From the NCBI GenBank assembly GCA_003598085.1, contig QZKU01000012.1:1-36118 (forward strand): 36,118 nucleotides of DNA, written 5' to 3'. Positions 14,349 through 36,118 of the stretch are shown here, piece after piece (within the stretch, counting starts at the first letter, position 1; each line of letters starts with the position of its first letter). The position numbers were made by a program, and so were the translations under genes. This DNA comes from Candidatus Abyssobacteria bacterium SURF_5. Its GTDB lineage: Bacteria > Abyssobacteria > SURF-5. The notes below the pieces were generated by a model that searched no databases, was not told where the DNA came from, and was given only the letters and a program-made list of their open reading frames with translations.

Positions 14349-15439
14349 AAAAAATCATGGACAAAGCCCGATTTCGAACACGCGCAAATCCTGTCTCCCG
14401 GAATCTCCAAAAATGGAGCTTGTCGCTATTCCTGGCCTTAGCGGTCGCGGCGCCGGCGCTCGCGCAGCAGATCGCGCGGGTGAAGGACGTTGCCTATGTC
14501 CGCGGAGTGCGCAGCAACCAACTCGTCGGGTACGGACTCGTGGCCGGTTTGAATGGAACCGGTGACGGACGCCGCGTCCCCTTCACCCGGCAAATGCTGG
14601 CAAACATGGTGAATCAGTTCGGTGTCACGTTCGATTCCGTTCAGTTGCGCGCGGAGAACGTGGCCGCAGTCATGGTCACGGCCGAACTTCCCCCCTACGC
14701 AAAGGAAGGCGCGAAATTAGACGCCACCGTCTCTGCAATCGGCGACGCCGAAAGCCTGCAAGGCGGCACCCTGCTGCTGACGGCTCTGCGAGCAGGAAAT
14801 AATGAGGTTTACGCGGTGGCGCAGGGCCCTGTCTCGGTGGGAACGCCAAGTACGGGCCGCAGAATGCGGGGAGCACATCTCACAACAGGACTGGCGGTTC
14901 AGGGCGCTATCGTCGAAAAGGAGGTCCCTTCCACAATTGTCGGCGAAACCGACACGCTTACCATTTGCCTTCGCCGCGCTGATTTCACCACCGCAATGCG
15001 GACGGCGGATGCGATCAACCTTCATTTTCATCAAAAAGTAGCCGAAGCCGTTGACGGAGGTTCAATCGCGGTAAAGATACCCCAGAGTTACACCGGCGAC
15101 ACCATCGGTTTTATCAGTGAAATGGAGCTGGCGCCAGTCGAGCCCGATACCCTCGCCAAAGTCGTTATCAACGAACGCACCGGCACCATAGTAGTCGGAA
15201 AGGACGCCGTCATCACGCCCGTGGCTGTCTCGCATGGAGATATCCGAATATTTGTCGGCGGGCGGGACGAGGCCGCCGCTCTCCCCGATGAACTGCATGT
15301 CCTGGAGCTTTATGGCGCAAAAGTGGGGGAGGTCGCAAGCGCATTGAATGCCATCGGCGTTCGACCTGAGGATCTTGTCGCGATTTTCGAGGCGATCGAT
15401 CGCGCCGGCGCCCTTCAGGCAACCCTGGAATTTATGTAA
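14336..15439 (+). CDS. flgI: Flagellar P-ring protein FlgI
   Basis: The 367-residue product has the normal length. The ATG at 14336 overlaps the end of flgH by 13 bases; an upstream in-frame ATG at 14267 lies deep in flgH and was rejected. The signal peptide spans about residues 28-46 (LSLFLALAVAAPALAQQ). Conserved motifs follow: IARVKDVAYVRGVRSNQLVG, GYGLVAGLNGTGDG, FGVTFDSVQLRAENVAAVMV, GDAESLQGGTLLLTAL, NERTGTIVVGKDAVITPVAV and the C-terminal GVRPEDLVAIFEAIDRAGAL. It polymerises as the P-ring around the rod in the periplasm, with help from FlgA two genes upstream. Confidence 0.97.
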   Translation: MAILKKIMDKARFRTRANPVSRNLQKWSLSLFLALAVAAPALAQQIARVKDVAYVRGVRSNQLVGYGLVAGLNGTGDGRRVPFTRQMLANMVNQFGVTFDSVQLRAENVAAVMVTAELPPYAKEGAKLDATVSAIGDAESLQGGTLLLTALRAGNNEVYAVAQGPVSVGTPSTGRRMRGAHLTTGLAVQGAIVEKEVPSTIVGETDTLTICLRRADFTTAMRTADAINLHFHQKVAEAVDGGSIAVKIPQSYTGDTIGFISEMELAPVEPDTLAKVVINERTGTIVVGKDAVITPVAVSHGDIRIFVGGRDEAAALPDELHVLELYGAKVGEVASALNAIGVRPEDLVAIFEAIDRAGALQATLEFM

Positions 15440-15660
15440 CAGAATGCGAGCACTATTGAAGTGTCCAACGGCTGCAATCTAAGCAATGGGGACTGTCCCT
15501 CTGTCCCGGGGCGAAGAGGATCGGCTCTATTTTTGGATTTCACAGCGACGGCGATTATGCAAAATAAATTCGCGCCTGATCGCTGAGCGCAGCGAAGTCC
15601 CGCGCCTCGCGGGATAGAATGGTGTTTGTCCCCAAAGCAAGCAAAAACTAAAAGGCCCGC
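15440..15660. other. Intergenic region with REP-like palindromes between flgI and flgJ
   Basis: No gene is seen in these 221 bp. They hold a GGGGACTGTCCC-type palindrome followed by CTGTCCC (about 15487-15508) and a perfect CCCGCG-CCT-CGCGGG hairpin near 15598-15612. GGGGAC/GTCCCC motifs of this sort are typical of dispersed REP elements. This is the only sizeable gap inside the flagellar operon. Confidence 0.6.
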
Positions 15661-16014
15661 ATGAATCAGCTTGATATCGTTCAAAGTTCGGAACGACATT
15701 TCGGTGTTGGACAAACTCAGCAAAAACTCCAGCAGCTCAGTTCTCCCACCGCGGACTCCAATCCGGAGAAAGTGCGGGCAGCCGCCCGCGAGATGGCGAC
15801 CTATTTCCTCCATATGTTGATCCGCGAAATGCGGAAATCGATCCCAAAAAATTCAGTCCTCTACGGCGGAAAAACAGAAGAGCTGTTTCAGGATTTTCTG
15901 GATGAGGAACTTGCCACAGGGATGGTGCGCTCAAGTCAGCTCGGATTGGCCGACTCGATTTACCAAAGTCTGCAAACCTTGCTAAAGCAAACGCCGCAGG
16001 ATGCCGATATCTAA
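15661..16014 (+). CDS. flgJ: FlgJ-type rod-binding protein (rod-capping domain only)
   Basis: This 117-residue protein matches only the N-terminal rod-binding domain of FlgJ. Key motifs are KVRAAAREMATYFLHMLIRE MRKS-like helix, SVLYGGKTEELFQDFLDEEL and GLADSIYQSL. The C-terminal muramidase domain of enterobacterial FlgJ (about 310 residues) is absent, as in many non-enteric bacteria where a separate enzyme opens the peptidoglycan. No such hydrolase is in the window. An AAAAGG ribosome-binding site precedes the ATG. The last codons overlap a sigma-28-like promoter for the next gene. Confidence 0.88.
   Translation: MNQLDIVQSSERHFGVGQTQQKLQQLSSPTADSNPEKVRAAAREMATYFLHMLIREMRKSIPKNSVLYGGKTEELFQDFLDEELATGMVRSSQLGLADSIYQSLQTLLKQTPQDADI
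15983..16010 (+). promoter_or_regulatory. Sigma-28 (FliA)-like promoter candidate ahead of flgN
   Basis: TAAA at 15983-15986 and GCCGATAT at 16003-16010 are separated by 16 bp, near the FliA spacing of about 15. The element overlaps the 3' end of flgJ, so the match could be coincidental. If real, it would drive flgN-flgK-flgL-fliW-csrA as late genes. Confidence 0.4.
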
Positions 16015-16553: not shown

Positions 16554-18296
16554 ATGACCCTCTTTTCTATGCTTTCGCTGGGAGGAAGCGCTCTCCAGAC
16601 ACAGCAGATTCTGATGGATGTGGCCGGACAAAACGTCGCGAATGCCGCCACGCCCGGTTACTCGCGCCAGCGCGCCGAGCTCCTGCGATACCCCGAATAT
16701 CGGTACGGCAACGTTCTGCTGGGACACGGCGCATATGTCGGAACGATTTCACGGGTCCGTGAAAGCCTCATCGATGACCGGTTTCGCAAGGAGAATTCCG
16801 TGCTGGGCGAGTATGCCATCCGCATGGATTTTCTGATGCAGACCGAGGATATTCTGGGCGAGCCCTCCGATTCTGGAATTGCAAACGGGATATCCACTTT
16901 ATTCGACAACTTCCAGGAACTGTCCAACAATCCTGAGGACCCGGCCGTGCGAACCACGGTCAGCAGTTCCGCCGTCACCCTCGCTGATTCCATCCGCTCG
17001 ACACACGAGATGCTTGTCAACCAGAGCGTCTCCATGAGCGGCTTCATCAATAGCAGCGTCCAGGAAATCAACCGGCTCGCCCAGCAGATCAGCGAGCTCA
17101 ATCGCAGCATCAGCACCCTCGAGGCGGGGTCGGCACAGGCCAATTCCTCGCGCGATATGCGCGACCAGCTCCTGAACCAGCTATCCTCAATTGCATCGGT
17201 CGACATCCGCAACAACGCCAATGGCACCGTCAGCGTTTATCTGGATGGATACGGCATCGTCCAGGATTACAACTACAATCCCGTCGGGCTGCGCCTGAAT
17301 CCCGGCACGGCCTCTGCGGGAGATTATTACGAGATCATCGCCTTGAACGGCGGAAACCGCCCGCTCGAAATCAGGAGCGGCAGCCTCAAAGGTTACCTCG
17401 ACATGCGCGACGGCGAAGTGATGAATCAGATGATGTCCGACCTCGACACGCTCGCGCTCTCCCTTATTGAAGAAGTGAACCGAATCCACAGCCAGGGCGT
17501 CGGCCTCACGCGCTACACCTCGACCACCTCCGATTTCGCCGTCACCGATCCCGATGCGACGCTTGATTCCGCTGGCTTGCCCTTTACGCCGATCGACGGA
17601 TCGTTTTATCTCGCCGTCTATGATACCGACGGGCAACTGCTCGAGCAGCATGAGATCACCGTCGACGCCGATACCGATTCGTTGAACTCGATCGCGGCCC
17701 AAATCAACACTGCCTTTGCAGCCGACGGGCGACTCACCGCAACCGTTACGCCCGATAACCAGCTCGTTCTGGAAACGACGACGGCCGGCGACACGTTCAC
17801 GTTCGTCAGCGACGATACCCAGGCCGGCGACACGAGCGATTTCCTGCTCGCGATGGGCCTAAATACCTTTTTCACCTTCGATCCCGAGGCCGGCGCCGCC
17901 GCCTCGATCGCCGTCTCCGATAGAATCCTGGCCGATCCCAACCTTATCGCAGCCGCACGGTCCCCGAGTCCCGGCGACAACAGCAATGCGCTCGCTCTCG
18001 CCCAGCTACGGGATCAGCCGGTTATCGGTGCGGGAGCCTCCTTGACTATCGAAGGGTTTTTCCAGGAAACACTCGCTTACCTCGGCTCGGAAACGCGCCA
18101 GGCAATTGACAAGCACGATGTCGTTTTAGGAGTTGTGAGCGGTATCGCAAACCTGCGCGACTCGATCTCGGGCGTCTCTCTCGATGAGGAAGCCATAAAT
18201 ATCATGGTCGCCCAGCAGGCATATGAGGCGTCGGCCCAGTTTGTCGGCGCCGTCAACGACATGTTGCAGGTGCTGCTCACTGAGCTGAATGCCTGA
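16554..18296 (+). CDS. flgK: Flagellar hook-associated protein 1, FlgK
   Basis: The 580-residue product starts after GGGAGGA. The N-terminal D0/D1 region shows LSLGGSALQTQQILMDVAGQ and NVANAATPGYSRQRAEL, the signature of FlgK. A helical region (SGIANGISTLFDNFQELSNN, MRDQLLNQLSSIASVDIRNN) leads to a variable, Asp/Thr-rich middle (about 340-470). The C-terminus carries SGVSLDEEAINIMVAQQAYE followed by ASAQFVGAVNDMLQVLLTEL, the classical D0 helix. It forms the first hook-filament junction layer, exported by the flagellar type III apparatus with FlgN. Upstream spacing to flgN is 21 bp and flgL follows after 27 bp. Confidence 0.97.
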   Translation: MTLFSMLSLGGSALQTQQILMDVAGQNVANAATPGYSRQRAELLRYPEYRYGNVLLGHGAYVGTISRVRESLIDDRFRKENSVLGEYAIRMDFLMQTEDILGEPSDSGIANGISTLFDNFQELSNNPEDPAVRTTVSSSAVTLADSIRSTHEMLVNQSVSMSGFINSSVQEINRLAQQISELNRSISTLEAGSAQANSSRDMRDQLLNQLSSIASVDIRNNANGTVSVYLDGYGIVQDYNYNPVGLRLNPGTASAGDYYEIIALNGGNRPLEIRSGSLKGYLDMRDGEVMNQMMSDLDTLALSLIEEVNRIHSQGVGLTRYTSTTSDFAVTDPDATLDSAGLPFTPIDGSFYLAVYDTDGQLLEQHEITVDADTDSLNSIAAQINTAFAADGRLTATVTPDNQLVLETTTAGDTFTFVSDDTQAGDTSDFLLAMGLNTFFTFDPEAGAAASIAVSDRILADPNLIAAARSPSPGDNSNALALAQLRDQPVIGAGASLTIEGFFQETLAYLGSETRQAIDKHDVVLGVVSGIANLRDSISGVSLDEEAINIMVAQQAYEASAQFVGAVNDMLQVLLTELNA

Positions 18297-18323
18297 AAAA
18301 GCCATCGTGAAGGGTAACGAATA

Positions 18324-19892
18324 ATGGTCACGCGAATTTCGAATCCGGTTATCGTGAACACGGCTCTGCAAAACGTGCAGAACTCGCTCCGCCAACTCCA
18401 GCACACGCAGGAAACGCTCGCCACCGGGCTGGTGATCCGGCGCCCTTCGGACAATCCTCTCGGGACCGCCGTCGTCATGCGCTTAAGGGCGGAAATCAAC
18501 GAGATAGACAGGTTCATATCCAATATCGATTTTGTGGAATCGTTCGTGACGGCGACCGAGGGCTCGCTCGGTATCCTGAACGATATCCTGCTGGACCTGC
18601 GCGAGATAACCGTGACCGAGGCAAACGATACCAGCAATCCTGAGTCACGGGCGGCTGCCGCCGAGCAGGTAAACGCCCTCATCGAGCAACTGCTGCAGAC
18701 CGTGAATTCCGATTTCGGCGGCCGCTATCTGTTCGCCGGGCATGATACCAAGACCATTCCATTCACGCGTACCGATACCGGCTCGGCTTATCACGGCGAC
18801 AGCGGGCTGATGTACGTGGAAATCGGCCCGGGCAACGTGGTGCCGATCAATATCCCCGGCAATCAGGCCTTCGCGACCAGGATCGGGGAAGTCATCGGCG
18901 ATCCCGTGCTCGAGCCCGATTTAAGCGCGGGCCCCGTATATGATACTCCGCTGGCGTTGCTCAATGACGGCGCCGGGGTCCAAGCAGGCTCGATCGTGAT
19001 CACCGACGGCACAGGCGCTTCCGCCACAATCGACCTGAGCTCAGCCGTCACGATCGGCGATGTTATCAATGCCATAAATGCGGCGCCTGTCGATGTGACC
19101 GCGAGCATTAATGCTGACGGGAACGGCCTGTTTATCGACGATAACACGGTCGATCCAACTCTCCCTTTGATCATCGCCGAGGATCCGGCCGCGTCGCCGG
19201 CCACGACGACTGCGGCAGACCTGGGTATTCTTGGCAGTTCGGTCGGCTCGCTTATGGGATCAAACCTCGATCCGGTCGCTGAATTGGACACGCCCGTTTT
19301 CCTCCTCAACGAGGGCGCCGGCATCAACCTCGGCACGATCCGTATTACCAATGACACGCAAACGGCCTCCGTCGACCTGAGCTCCGCACTAACGGTCGGC
19401 GACGTCATCGACGCGATCAATAACGCCGGAGTCGATGTTCAGGCATCGCTCGATTCCACCGGTAACCGCCTGATCATAAACTCGCTCATCGGCGATACGC
19501 CCATCGTCATTGTCAGCGAACTCGGCGGCACTACGGCCGAAGACCTCGGCATCTTTGCGCCCGGACTTATCGAAGTCGCGGAAGCCGTGCGGCAAGCCTT
19601 GCTGAATAACGACCCAGAGCGACTAACCGAACTCATTGCAAACGTCGATGACGCAACTTCGCGGATTACCTCGGCTCGCGCTAAATCCGGACAGAATCTG
19701 GTGCAGACCGATTTTGCGCGATCGCGCCTTCTCGATCTGCAGCTTAACTTTCACGAGCTTCGCTCGAACACCGAGGAAGCGGACCTCACGGAATTTGCAA
19801 CAAAACTGGTGAATCAGGAGGTCATCTATCAGGCTGCCCTCTCTACCACTGTTCACGTGCTTCAGCCCACTCTGTTCAGTTTCCTCAGATAA
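18324..19892 (+). CDS. flgL: Flagellar hook-associated protein 3, FlgL, with two flagellin-IN modules
   Basis: The 522-residue protein is far longer than enterobacterial FlgL (about 317). The conserved N-terminus includes VTRISNPVIVNTALQNVQNS and LATGLVIRRPSDNPLGTAVV, and the C-terminus ends DLTEFATKLVNQEVIYQAAL with a final helix. The extra length lies at about residues 206-411. It consists of two similar modules starting TPLALLNDGAGVQ and TPVFLLNEGAGIN, each with a DLSSAxTxGDVIxAIN core, the flagellin IN motif. These modules likely form surface-exposed domains at the hook-filament junction. It belongs to the same transcript as flgK. Confidence 0.95.
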   Translation: MVTRISNPVIVNTALQNVQNSLRQLQHTQETLATGLVIRRPSDNPLGTAVVMRLRAEINEIDRFISNIDFVESFVTATEGSLGILNDILLDLREITVTEANDTSNPESRAAAAEQVNALIEQLLQTVNSDFGGRYLFAGHDTKTIPFTRTDTGSAYHGDSGLMYVEIGPGNVVPINIPGNQAFATRIGEVIGDPVLEPDLSAGPVYDTPLALLNDGAGVQAGSIVITDGTGASATIDLSSAVTIGDVINAINAAPVDVTASINADGNGLFIDDNTVDPTLPLIIAEDPAASPATTTAADLGILGSSVGSLMGSNLDPVAELDTPVFLLNEGAGINLGTIRITNDTQTASVDLSSALTVGDVIDAINNAGVDVQASLDSTGNRLIINSLIGDTPIVIVSELGGTTAEDLGIFAPGLIEVAEAVRQALLNNDPERLTELIANVDDATSRITSARAKSGQNLVQTDFARSRLLDLQLNFHELRSNTEEADLTEFATKLVNQEVIYQAALSTTVHVLQPTLFSFLR

Positions 19893-34405: not shown

Positions 34406-34413
34406 ATCGAACC

Positions 34414-34442
34414 TTGACTTTTCCATTCTGTAAGGATAAAAT
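34414..34442 (+). promoter_or_regulatory. Sigma-70-type promoter for the AT-rich gene pair
   Basis: TTGACT (34414-34419), 17 bp, then TAAAAT (34437-34442). It lies directly after the hydrolase stop codon and about 110 bp ahead of the next start. Base composition becomes AT-richer from here. Confidence 0.6.
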
Positions 34443-34553
34443 TTATTGCGTTGCTCTTGGGATACCAGTCGAATGCTACTCTAGAATTATTACCCTCATT
34501 GCTGGGCGATTTTGTCGCAGACTTGAGAGATATAAAAGCAAGAGGATCGAAAA

Positions 34554-35354
34554 ATGACGAACTCTGGTCTAGAGGACTTATTTTCAAATATGGAGCGTGA
34601 AGCTCACGCGGCGCTAAAAATCGCGGCAGCGGCTATCAGCGCCTTAAGGAAATTTCATTCTGCAGCTCAACTGGGGAATCTGAAGGATCTCAGAAAGAAT
34701 ATCGATTTTGCCGACCAAACTGTCATGCAACTTAAGGAACAGATCGAAAAGGCACGAGCGAGTTGGACATTAAATGATGAAGAATATTTGGCTGGTCACG
34801 CTGCCGCTCTAGAGTTTCTAAATGCTGCAGAAGAAGCAGGACTGAAGATGTTTGAACTAGATGAAAGGTTATATTGTCACCCATTCCTCATTCGGACACT
34901 CCCGGAAGAGGGAGCGGTGCTAATCGATAAGTCTTTGGAGAAAAGAATACGTCCATCCTTTTTGATCAAATATTTAAAGCAACTCCAAGAGAAACCGTCG
35001 AAGTTCAAGCCAGAAACATTCCTCGAGTGCTTATTTGAATGCTACGAAGTCTTGTCCGCAGCGAGAGGAAAAGGAACAACAAGAAATGGCACTGTCGTGA
35101 AGTTGAAGGAAATATATAGGCTTCTCACTTTGTTGCCTGGCCAAAACAAGAATTACTCTATCCAAGAGTTTGCCAGAGATATCTACTTGTTGGACAAGAG
35201 CCTTGTAAATAGAACAAAAAAGGGATTTAAGGTCCAATTTCCTGCGGATACAGGAACAAAAACTAAGAATCCGCTCTCGGTCATAACTGAAGATGGCATT
35301 GAGAAAATCTATTATGGAATATCATTCTCGTATCAACAGGAGACTGCCACATGA
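34554..35354 (+). CDS. Unknown protein, coiled-coil N-terminus, paired with a BrxD-like gene
   Basis: I do not recognise the family. The 266-residue protein starts after AGAGG with 8-nt spacing. The N-terminal 75 residues are helical (EREAHAALKIAAAAISALRK, DFADQTVMQLKEQIEKARAS), suggesting a coiled coil. A mixed middle has LDERLYCHPFLIRTLPEEGA. A C-terminal part ends GFKVQFPADTGTKTKNPLSV then ITEDGIEKIYYGISFSY, a short strand-rich tail. No membrane helix or signal peptide is seen. It overlaps the next gene by four bases (ATGA), so the two products are probably partners. Codon use and GC are unlike the rest of the window, suggesting acquisition by transfer. A role in phage defence is inferred only from the partner. 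Confidence 0.8.
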   Translation: MTNSGLEDLFSNMEREAHAALKIAAAAISALRKFHSAAQLGNLKDLRKNIDFADQTVMQLKEQIEKARASWTLNDEEYLAGHAAALEFLNAAEEAGLKMFELDERLYCHPFLIRTLPEEGAVLIDKSLEKRIRPSFLIKYLKQLQEKPSKFKPETFLECLFECYEVLSAARGKGTTRNGTVVKLKEIYRLLTLLPGQNKNYSIQEFARDIYLLDKSLVNRTKKGFKVQFPADTGTKTKNPLSVITEDGIEKIYYGISFSYQQETAT

Positions 35355-36043
35355 CTACTGATAGCGCATCTCAATGGCTCGAAATTCTTCGCAAAGAATA
35401 TTTGCAGGATTTCATCCGAGGCGGAGGATCTGCTGTCAAATTCATAATGCCTTCAAAAGAGATAGCCCCCGAAGATTTAATTGGACGATTGAAAATTGCA
35501 TCTGAGGAAGAAGGATTTCAATTTGCTTCGATAGATGCCGCTCATACAAAAATTCATATGATCGACAGATTATTCAATGATATTGCTCGCCAAGTTGATT
35601 GGGACGGGTTGGCTTCGAATTTTCTTGGTCGGCTCATTGTCAATAATGGGTGCAGGCTTCAGGAAAATTCAAAAAAGCTTAAATTAAATGAAATTGCTGC
35701 TTTAAATGGGCTGGAAGAGAAATTCCTTATCATTGACATCCGAAAATGGCTCGAAAAAGATATTTATCGCGATTATGGGATGAGCCAAGAATTCAGAATT
35801 GCTATGAGGAAGATGTGTCTGGCCCAACTGGAAGAAGACCAAGATCCTTCTTTCTTCAGAGATTTGGTAAAACAATGGCTGCAGGGTCAGATATCAAGGA
35901 TTTCGCTACTCAAAGAGGCCCTCATTTTCCAGAAGATTAACCGCTGCAATGCCAGACATATCTTGTTTTCTCTCGTCCATTGGCTGAGGAGGAATGAGCG
36001 TTCTGGGATGGTTCTAGTCTTAGACTCATTTTCGACAGTTTGA
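35351..36043 (+). CDS. BREX BrxD-like / DUF2791-type ATP-binding domain protein, apparently truncated
   Basis: The 230-residue reading starts at the ATGA overlap. WLEILRKEYLQDFIRGGGSA and VKFIMPSKE match the N-terminus of the 'BREX system ATP-binding domain' family. FASIDAAHTKIHMIDRLFND follows, then IARQVDWDGLASNFLGRLIV, EFRIAMRKMCLAQLEEDQDP, and SLLKEALIFQKINRCNARHI. It stops at TGA (36041-36043) right after a Walker B-like GMVLVLD. Known relatives run to about 400 residues or more, so about half is missing. Another frame stays open from about 36024 to the window end, compatible with a frameshift, but the peptide was not recognised. It may be a real truncation, a frameshift or an assembly error near the edge. 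Confidence 0.75.
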   Translation: MTTDSASQWLEILRKEYLQDFIRGGGSAVKFIMPSKEIAPEDLIGRLKIASEEEGFQFASIDAAHTKIHMIDRLFNDIARQVDWDGLASNFLGRLIVNNGCRLQENSKKLKLNEIAALNGLEEKFLIIDIRKWLEKDIYRDYGMSQEFRIAMRKMCLAQLEEDQDPSFFRDLVKQWLQGQISRISLLKEALIFQKINRCNARHILFSLVHWLRRNERSGMVLVLDSFSTV

Positions 36044-36118
36044 AAAATTAAGCTATTTTGTATCAAGAACTTACAGAGACAGAAAAAGCTCTAGGCACTA
36101 CATTTTCTCTGGCTCTCT
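36044..36118. other. Right-edge remnant after the BrxD-like stop
   Basis: Two plus-strand frames are open to the window end: one from about 36024 (HFRQFEKLSYFVSR) and one from 36052 (AILYQELTETEKALGT). Neither could be assigned. The sequence remains AT-rich. Confidence 0.4.

Follow-up and report, generated by a model that had tools for sequence, protein, structure and literature searches.

The window, a stretch of 36,118 bp, is the entire contig C12, one of 145 in the draft assembly of Candidatus Abyssobacteria bacterium SURF_5. Its GC content falls from 56.4% over positions 1–34,405 to 41.7% over positions 34,406–36,024, placing the latter segment approximately six standard deviations below stretches of the same size in the window; the first-pass annotation had reported a shift in composition right after 34,405 and had considered the segment probably transferred, and these values confirm the former and are compatible with the latter. 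Two collinear genes on the forward strand were found here: gene 1 (34,554–35,354), encoding a protein of 266 aa, and the 5' part of gene 2 (35,351–36,024), a putative BrxD-like pseudo-ATPase gene that is cut after codon 225 by the left end of a multicopy insertion sequence (IS; 36,025–36,118, beginning CTCATTTTCGACAG...). The two genes overlap by an ATGA, as had been described, but the second open reading frame (35,351–36,043) is incomplete: its last codons and its stop (36,041–36,043) are IS sequence, making the stop a false one. Upstream of gene 1, a promoter-like match (TTGACT-17-TAAAAT, 34,414–34,442, forward strand) agrees with the consensus at 10 of 12 positions; the element previously called a clear promoter does exist, but such matches are no more frequent than in shuffled DNA (3 found versus 3.3 expected).

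The start of the IS was placed at 36,025 by comparison of contig ends, since the final 94–99 bases of C12 recur at ten of them (L002–L011), with the pentanucleotide TTAGA directly before it (36,020–36,024). Right ends of the same element occur on seven contigs (L111–L117), and this multicopy IS, which leaves 5-bp target duplications near TYWGA, interrupts the draft assembly. A search with PF10923 located the missing C-terminal part of gene 2 at the start of contig C111, where the other IS end (inverted repeat CTCATTTTGGACAC...) is followed by TTAGA and then by the remainder of the gene (C111, L016, positions 94–381, with the second copy of the target duplication at 94–98). Read as an empty site across C12 and C111, gene 2 comprises 319 codons in frame, the stop on C111 included. 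Given that the assembly is a draft and that contig C81 also carries an IS left end flanked by TTAGA, the two parts might belong to separate operons matched by chance at an IS end, and the duplication alone would be insufficient for the join. The pairing rests also on the unbroken frame and on full-length homology through the junction, which supplies exactly the missing C-terminal part; furthermore, TTAGA is found on C111 alone among the seven right ends, and the joined gene order is the one seen in relatives, which together render a chance match highly improbable. The insertion point coincides with the Walker B aspartate of gene 2, so that in this genome the gene encodes 225 native residues and a short IS-derived tail, and the insertion has probably inactivated the system.

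Beyond gene 2, C111 encodes gene 3, gene 4 and gene 5, followed directly by two metabolic genes, a BKACE gene and a zinc-binding dehydrogenase gene. The expectation that the window holds the start of an operon continuing past its right edge was therefore correct, as was the expectation of a helicase after BrxD-like genes, in the form of the helicase-nuclease fusion encoded by gene 5. On C111, GC content is 45.6% within the operon and 53.3% past its end, and the operon is flanked in the SURF_5 genome by ordinary genes. In a tree of gene 1, the window sequence was placed among rows from Thermodesulfobacteriota, Myxococcota, Bacillota and Nitrospirota; its own phylum was represented by only three genomes in our sample, the other two of which lacked gene 1. 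This placement, albeit on a long branch, fits horizontal transfer, and we consider the five-gene operon probably horizontally acquired. A search for the empty island site in the nearest genomes returned only the BKACE gene in common, without synteny.

Genes 2 and 3 can best be explained, on the basis of their motifs, as a dead and a live member of the same ATPase family. The second open reading frame of the window matched BrxD weakly (PADLOC, E = 6e−5); the window part of gene 2 scored 21 bits against the BrxD equivalog NF033438 (NCBIfam cut-off 350) and had no Pfam match when taken alone, while the part on C111 reached 27.9 bits with PF10923 (BrxC_BrxD ATPases), above its gathering cut-off of 22.2 bits. 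At the Walker A position, gene 2 carries the degenerate GGGSAVKF instead of GxxxxGK[S/T]. Across its relatives this motif is essentially GG[AS]x[VI][KR][FLV], with GK[ST] in none of 80 alignable members; the aspartate of Walker B is conserved in 80/81, followed mostly by I or L and not by glutamate, and an arginine three residues further on from that aspartate in 73/81. Gene 3 (416 aa) matches PF10923 at 81.3 bits and NF033438 at 67 bits, under the 350 cut-off, and carries the Walker A motif GRFGTGKS; in its relatives, both the Walker A motif GxGK[ST]H (79/79) and the Walker B pair DE (78/78) are complete. Profile comparison showed gene 2, gene 3 and SngB of the Shango system to be homologous. 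Gene 2 is thus best interpreted as a putative pseudo-ATPase of the BrxD/ORC-Cdc6 AAA+ family, and gene 3 as a candidate live BrxD-family ATPase. The BREX ATP-binding (DUF2791-like) signature noted earlier in the window corresponds to the weak BrxD match, but its Walker A is the degenerate one; likewise, BrxD-type genes are indeed present, but of the pair it is the degenerate copy that lies in the window, the live one being on C111.

Gene 1 had been described as unknown and containing a coiled coil. In agreement with this, it matched no family in the copies of Pfam, NCBIfam and PADLOC searched, and its AlphaFold2 model (pLDDT 90) has a long helical hairpin at residues 6–70 followed by a small beta region. 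Its C-terminal part runs helix-helix-helix-strand, which we read as winged-helix-like; a fold search of the PDB with this model gave nothing significant. Gene 4 (189 aa) was similarly without a family in the same profile collections. A model of its relative in L034 (pLDDT 86) matched endonuclease V (Foldseek E = 1.7e−6, TM approximately 0.58) and PIWI domains, from which an endonuclease V/PIWI fold is predicted for gene 4. The positions paired with the catalytic D, E and D of endonuclease V carry other residues in gene 4, in an alignment that remains below significance even though the residues pair as the fold predicts; the catalytic residues are apparently lost, with loss of activity likely rather than proven. 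Gene 5 (727 aa) contains SNF2, helicase C and Mrr_cat domains and scores 236 bits with ZorD and 228 bits with DpdE.

We then considered how widely these genes travel together. Gene 1 was present in 5 of 386 sampled genomes, that of SURF_5 included, and a profile scan of genome contigs yielded 99 gene-1 relatives, of which 80 loci, from many bacterial phyla, were kept. Taking gene 1 as the starting point, gene 2 came next in every one of the 79 loci that had space for it and gene 3 in 73 of 73, with a median junction of a 4-base overlap and with genes 2 and 3 fused in four loci. In the reverse direction, four genomes gave gene-3 profile scores of 440 bits or more, and they were precisely those with a strong gene 1; the next genome reached 165 bits. 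Whether homologues of the first protein always precede BrxD-like genes, a check proposed in the first-pass annotation, can thus be answered positively for the loci with room, in all of which the two keep company. Viral contigs scanned with the single proteins of genes 1 and 3 gave nothing, and neither did a profile scan; in tblastn searches, gene 1 had no relatives on plasmids or in phages, gene 2 had none on plasmids, and gene 3 returned one weak plasmid BrxD only.

The genes downstream of the triad (genes 1–3) vary. Where 2 kb or more lay past gene 3 (59 loci), gene 5 was found in 28 and gene 4 in 21, never gene 4 without gene 5; the Mrr domain was matched directly in twelve gene-5 proteins, that of SURF_5 included. 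Eleven other loci (L070, L078, L083, L086, L089, L091, L094, L095, L098, L099 and L103) encode a PbeA-like helicase directly 3' of gene 3; this subgroup consists mostly of Acidimicrobiia and related bins, and most members have an unknown gene of approximately 600 aa 5' of gene 1. Many actinobacterial triads had no helicase within reach. In L177 (3,981–9,365), an N6/N4 DNA methylase and an unknown protein of 164 aa come after an intermediate triad, an arrangement that may represent a restriction-modification variant, and L129 (5,893–8,214) encodes a gene-4-like protein and an SNF2 helicase without a triad, amid ordinary genes.

The neighbourhood of these loci includes known defence systems. In four actinobacterial loci, the triad stands divergently beside a complete SngA-SngB-SngC (L069, L071, L082 and L107, at about 4–10 kb on the minus strand), and two further contigs end inside SngA (L076 and L104); the head-to-head arrangement, identical each time in Actinomycetota, could reflect a joint system or a shared promoter region. 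A PLD helicase lies upstream in L042 and L044, the L042 protein exceeding the threshold of an NCBIfam anti-phage model, and a CRISPR array of 25 repeats (14,353–15,988) adjoins the operon in L029 (G234), where the protein at 17,341–18,999 appeared Cas9-like by eye only. Among 92 neighbours, PADLOC detected Septu, Wadjet, AbiE, Dpd and candidate defence families, while 92 control genes gave mostly generic matches, a comparison that is small and has controls unmatched by taxon.

These observations bear on whether the operon serves immunity at all. ORC/Cdc6-like ATPases and SNF2 motors also work in replication and repair, many triads stand alone amid ordinary genes, and the gene-4-like and SNF2 pair of L129 does so without a triad, all of which would suit a DNA-maintenance module in which a helicase loader and an SNF2 motor serve replication restart, repair or chromosome upkeep. 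Such a role is nonetheless unlikely in view of the patchy distribution, the AT-rich island composition, the Mrr restriction-nuclease domain of gene 5, the Shango, PLD helicase and CRISPR neighbours, and the loss of the operon through an IS. We favour instead, with a probability of roughly 0.7, a five-gene DNA defence operon of the helicase-loader type, interrupted by an IS and representing a variant of the BrxD-helicase kind; homology and genomic context suggest that its function is probably antiviral.

The operon was further compared with described systems. The first-pass annotation had raised the possibility of a BREX-type operon and proposed looking rightwards for helicase, methylase, PglZ or TerB genes. 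The helicase was found, but there was no methylase or TerB in the operon and no PglZ (PF08665) match in the SURF_5 genome (a draft of 98.5% completeness), and on the absence of PglZ we rejected BREX. PglX/BrxX methylase, BrxC, PglW and TerB were all absent among the operon genes, and BrxX/PglX methylase and BrxC were also absent directly downstream. The operon shares with the BrxD-BrxHI dyad of type 2 BREX (PMC12839542) an ORC/Cdc6-type BrxD ATPase adjoining a helicase; unlike that system, it lacks BrxC, PglX and PglW, sits in a genome without PglZ, and its gene 3 attains 67 of the 350 bits required for BrxD. Shango combines the ATPase SngB, the helicase SngC and the TerB-like SngA, and it restricts phages (PMC10250203). 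In both Shango and the SURF_5 operon, an ATPase of the BrxD family is encoded together with a superfamily 2 helicase, and the homology of genes 2 and 3 to SngB extends the likeness, as do SngC-like helicases elsewhere in the wider class described below. The SURF_5 operon differs in having two ATPases (one dead), an SNF2-Mrr helicase-nuclease and an EndoV-fold protein, and no TerB-like SngA; we rejected Shango because no operon gene matched SngA and gene 1 gave a probability of 0.8% against the SngA profile (hhalign).

Gene 5 is comparable to ZorD of Zorya in combining SNF2 with an Mrr-like nuclease, and similar to DpdE, but the other operon genes match no Zorya or Dpd model, and ZorA, ZorB and ZorC of type I Zorya were not found in the operon, leaving gene 5 alone to resemble ZorD. 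The relative of gene 4 shares its fold with endonuclease V and PIWI, whereas gene 4 itself differs from endonuclease V in the apparent replacement of D, E and D and in the lack of a significant sequence match. PbeABCD, considered for the PbeA-like helicase after some triads, was rejected because the sizes and type of its components differ (PbeB of 66 aa, an SMC-like PbeC and PbeD of 152 aa in the published description), and no Pbe model matched the operon. In the open-access literature, supplementary tables aside, we found no description of this gene set.

More distant genomes also encode tandem BrxD-like genes, and in most cases Walker A is intact in the first copy as well as in the second. 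They are preceded by a gene of about 280–350 aa and, in most of these genomes, followed by a DEAD-type helicase. In L178–L186, tandem BrxD-like ATPases occur together with a gene-1-like protein and BrxHI/SngC-like helicases; the helicase protein of L178 has an extra C-terminal P-loop helicase part (AAA_11/AAA_12), as does that of L181 by motif. Against BrxHI, two helicases from the distant loci scored 257 and 240 bits; against SngC, the same two scored 233 and 210 bits. By profile comparison, the upstream gene of these distant loci is a homologue of gene 1 (probability 97%, E = 2.5e−11, 169 columns), and the SURF_5 operon therefore appears to be a diverged branch of a wider architecture comprising a coiled-coil protein, tandem ATPases and a helicase. 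The operon fits this tandem-BrxD class, as we define it here, by its gene-1 homologue, followed by two PF10923-type ATPases and then by a helicase; in its branch, the first ATPase would have died and the helicase would have been exchanged, if the inferred direction of change is right.

The same data speak to whether the operon might be a derived Shango or type 2 BREX, its other components lost or scattered. The BrxD and SngB homology, the BrxHI/SngC-like helicases of the wider class and the four loci in which Shango adjoins the triad would be compatible with such an origin, which is nevertheless quite improbable: gene 1 is unrelated to SngA, the genome lacks PglZ, gene 3 scores 35 bits with SngB against 565 for true SngB, and gene 1 recurs with tandem ATPases far outside this branch, which argues for regarding the set as a separate module. 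At even odds, the helicase-loader operon may belong to a separate defence class, widespread and as yet unnamed, in which the coiled-coil/winged-helix protein of gene 1 and a pair of ORC/Cdc6-like ATPases of the BrxD family are combined with a helicase that can be exchanged (SNF2-Mrr, PbeA-like or BrxHI/SngC-like). In one branch of this class, the first ATPase would have become a permanent pseudo-enzyme, and the proteins would make up a heteromeric DNA-loading complex comparable to ORC.

ORC/Cdc6-type proteins act as loaders. In BREX, BrxD has been proposed as a loader acting with BrxHI (PMC12839542). By analogy with both, gene 1 and the ATPase pair would be ATP-dependent binders of foreign or abnormal DNA that load or license the SNF2 motor of gene 5, which would translocate while its Mrr domain cuts, with gene 4 as a putative non-catalytic nucleic-acid-binding subunit. 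The analogy with Shango would similarly have genes 1–3 sense or mark DNA and load a cutting SNF2-Mrr motor.

BrxD-type ATPases are known in BREX and Shango, where their role is described as uncharacterised. With an always-dead and an always-live BrxD copy, a constant partner and exchangeable helicases, these operons make the loader idea testable with few proteins, and models of gene 1 and gene 4 could expose systems that defence-finding software now reports only as stray BrxD or helicase matches.
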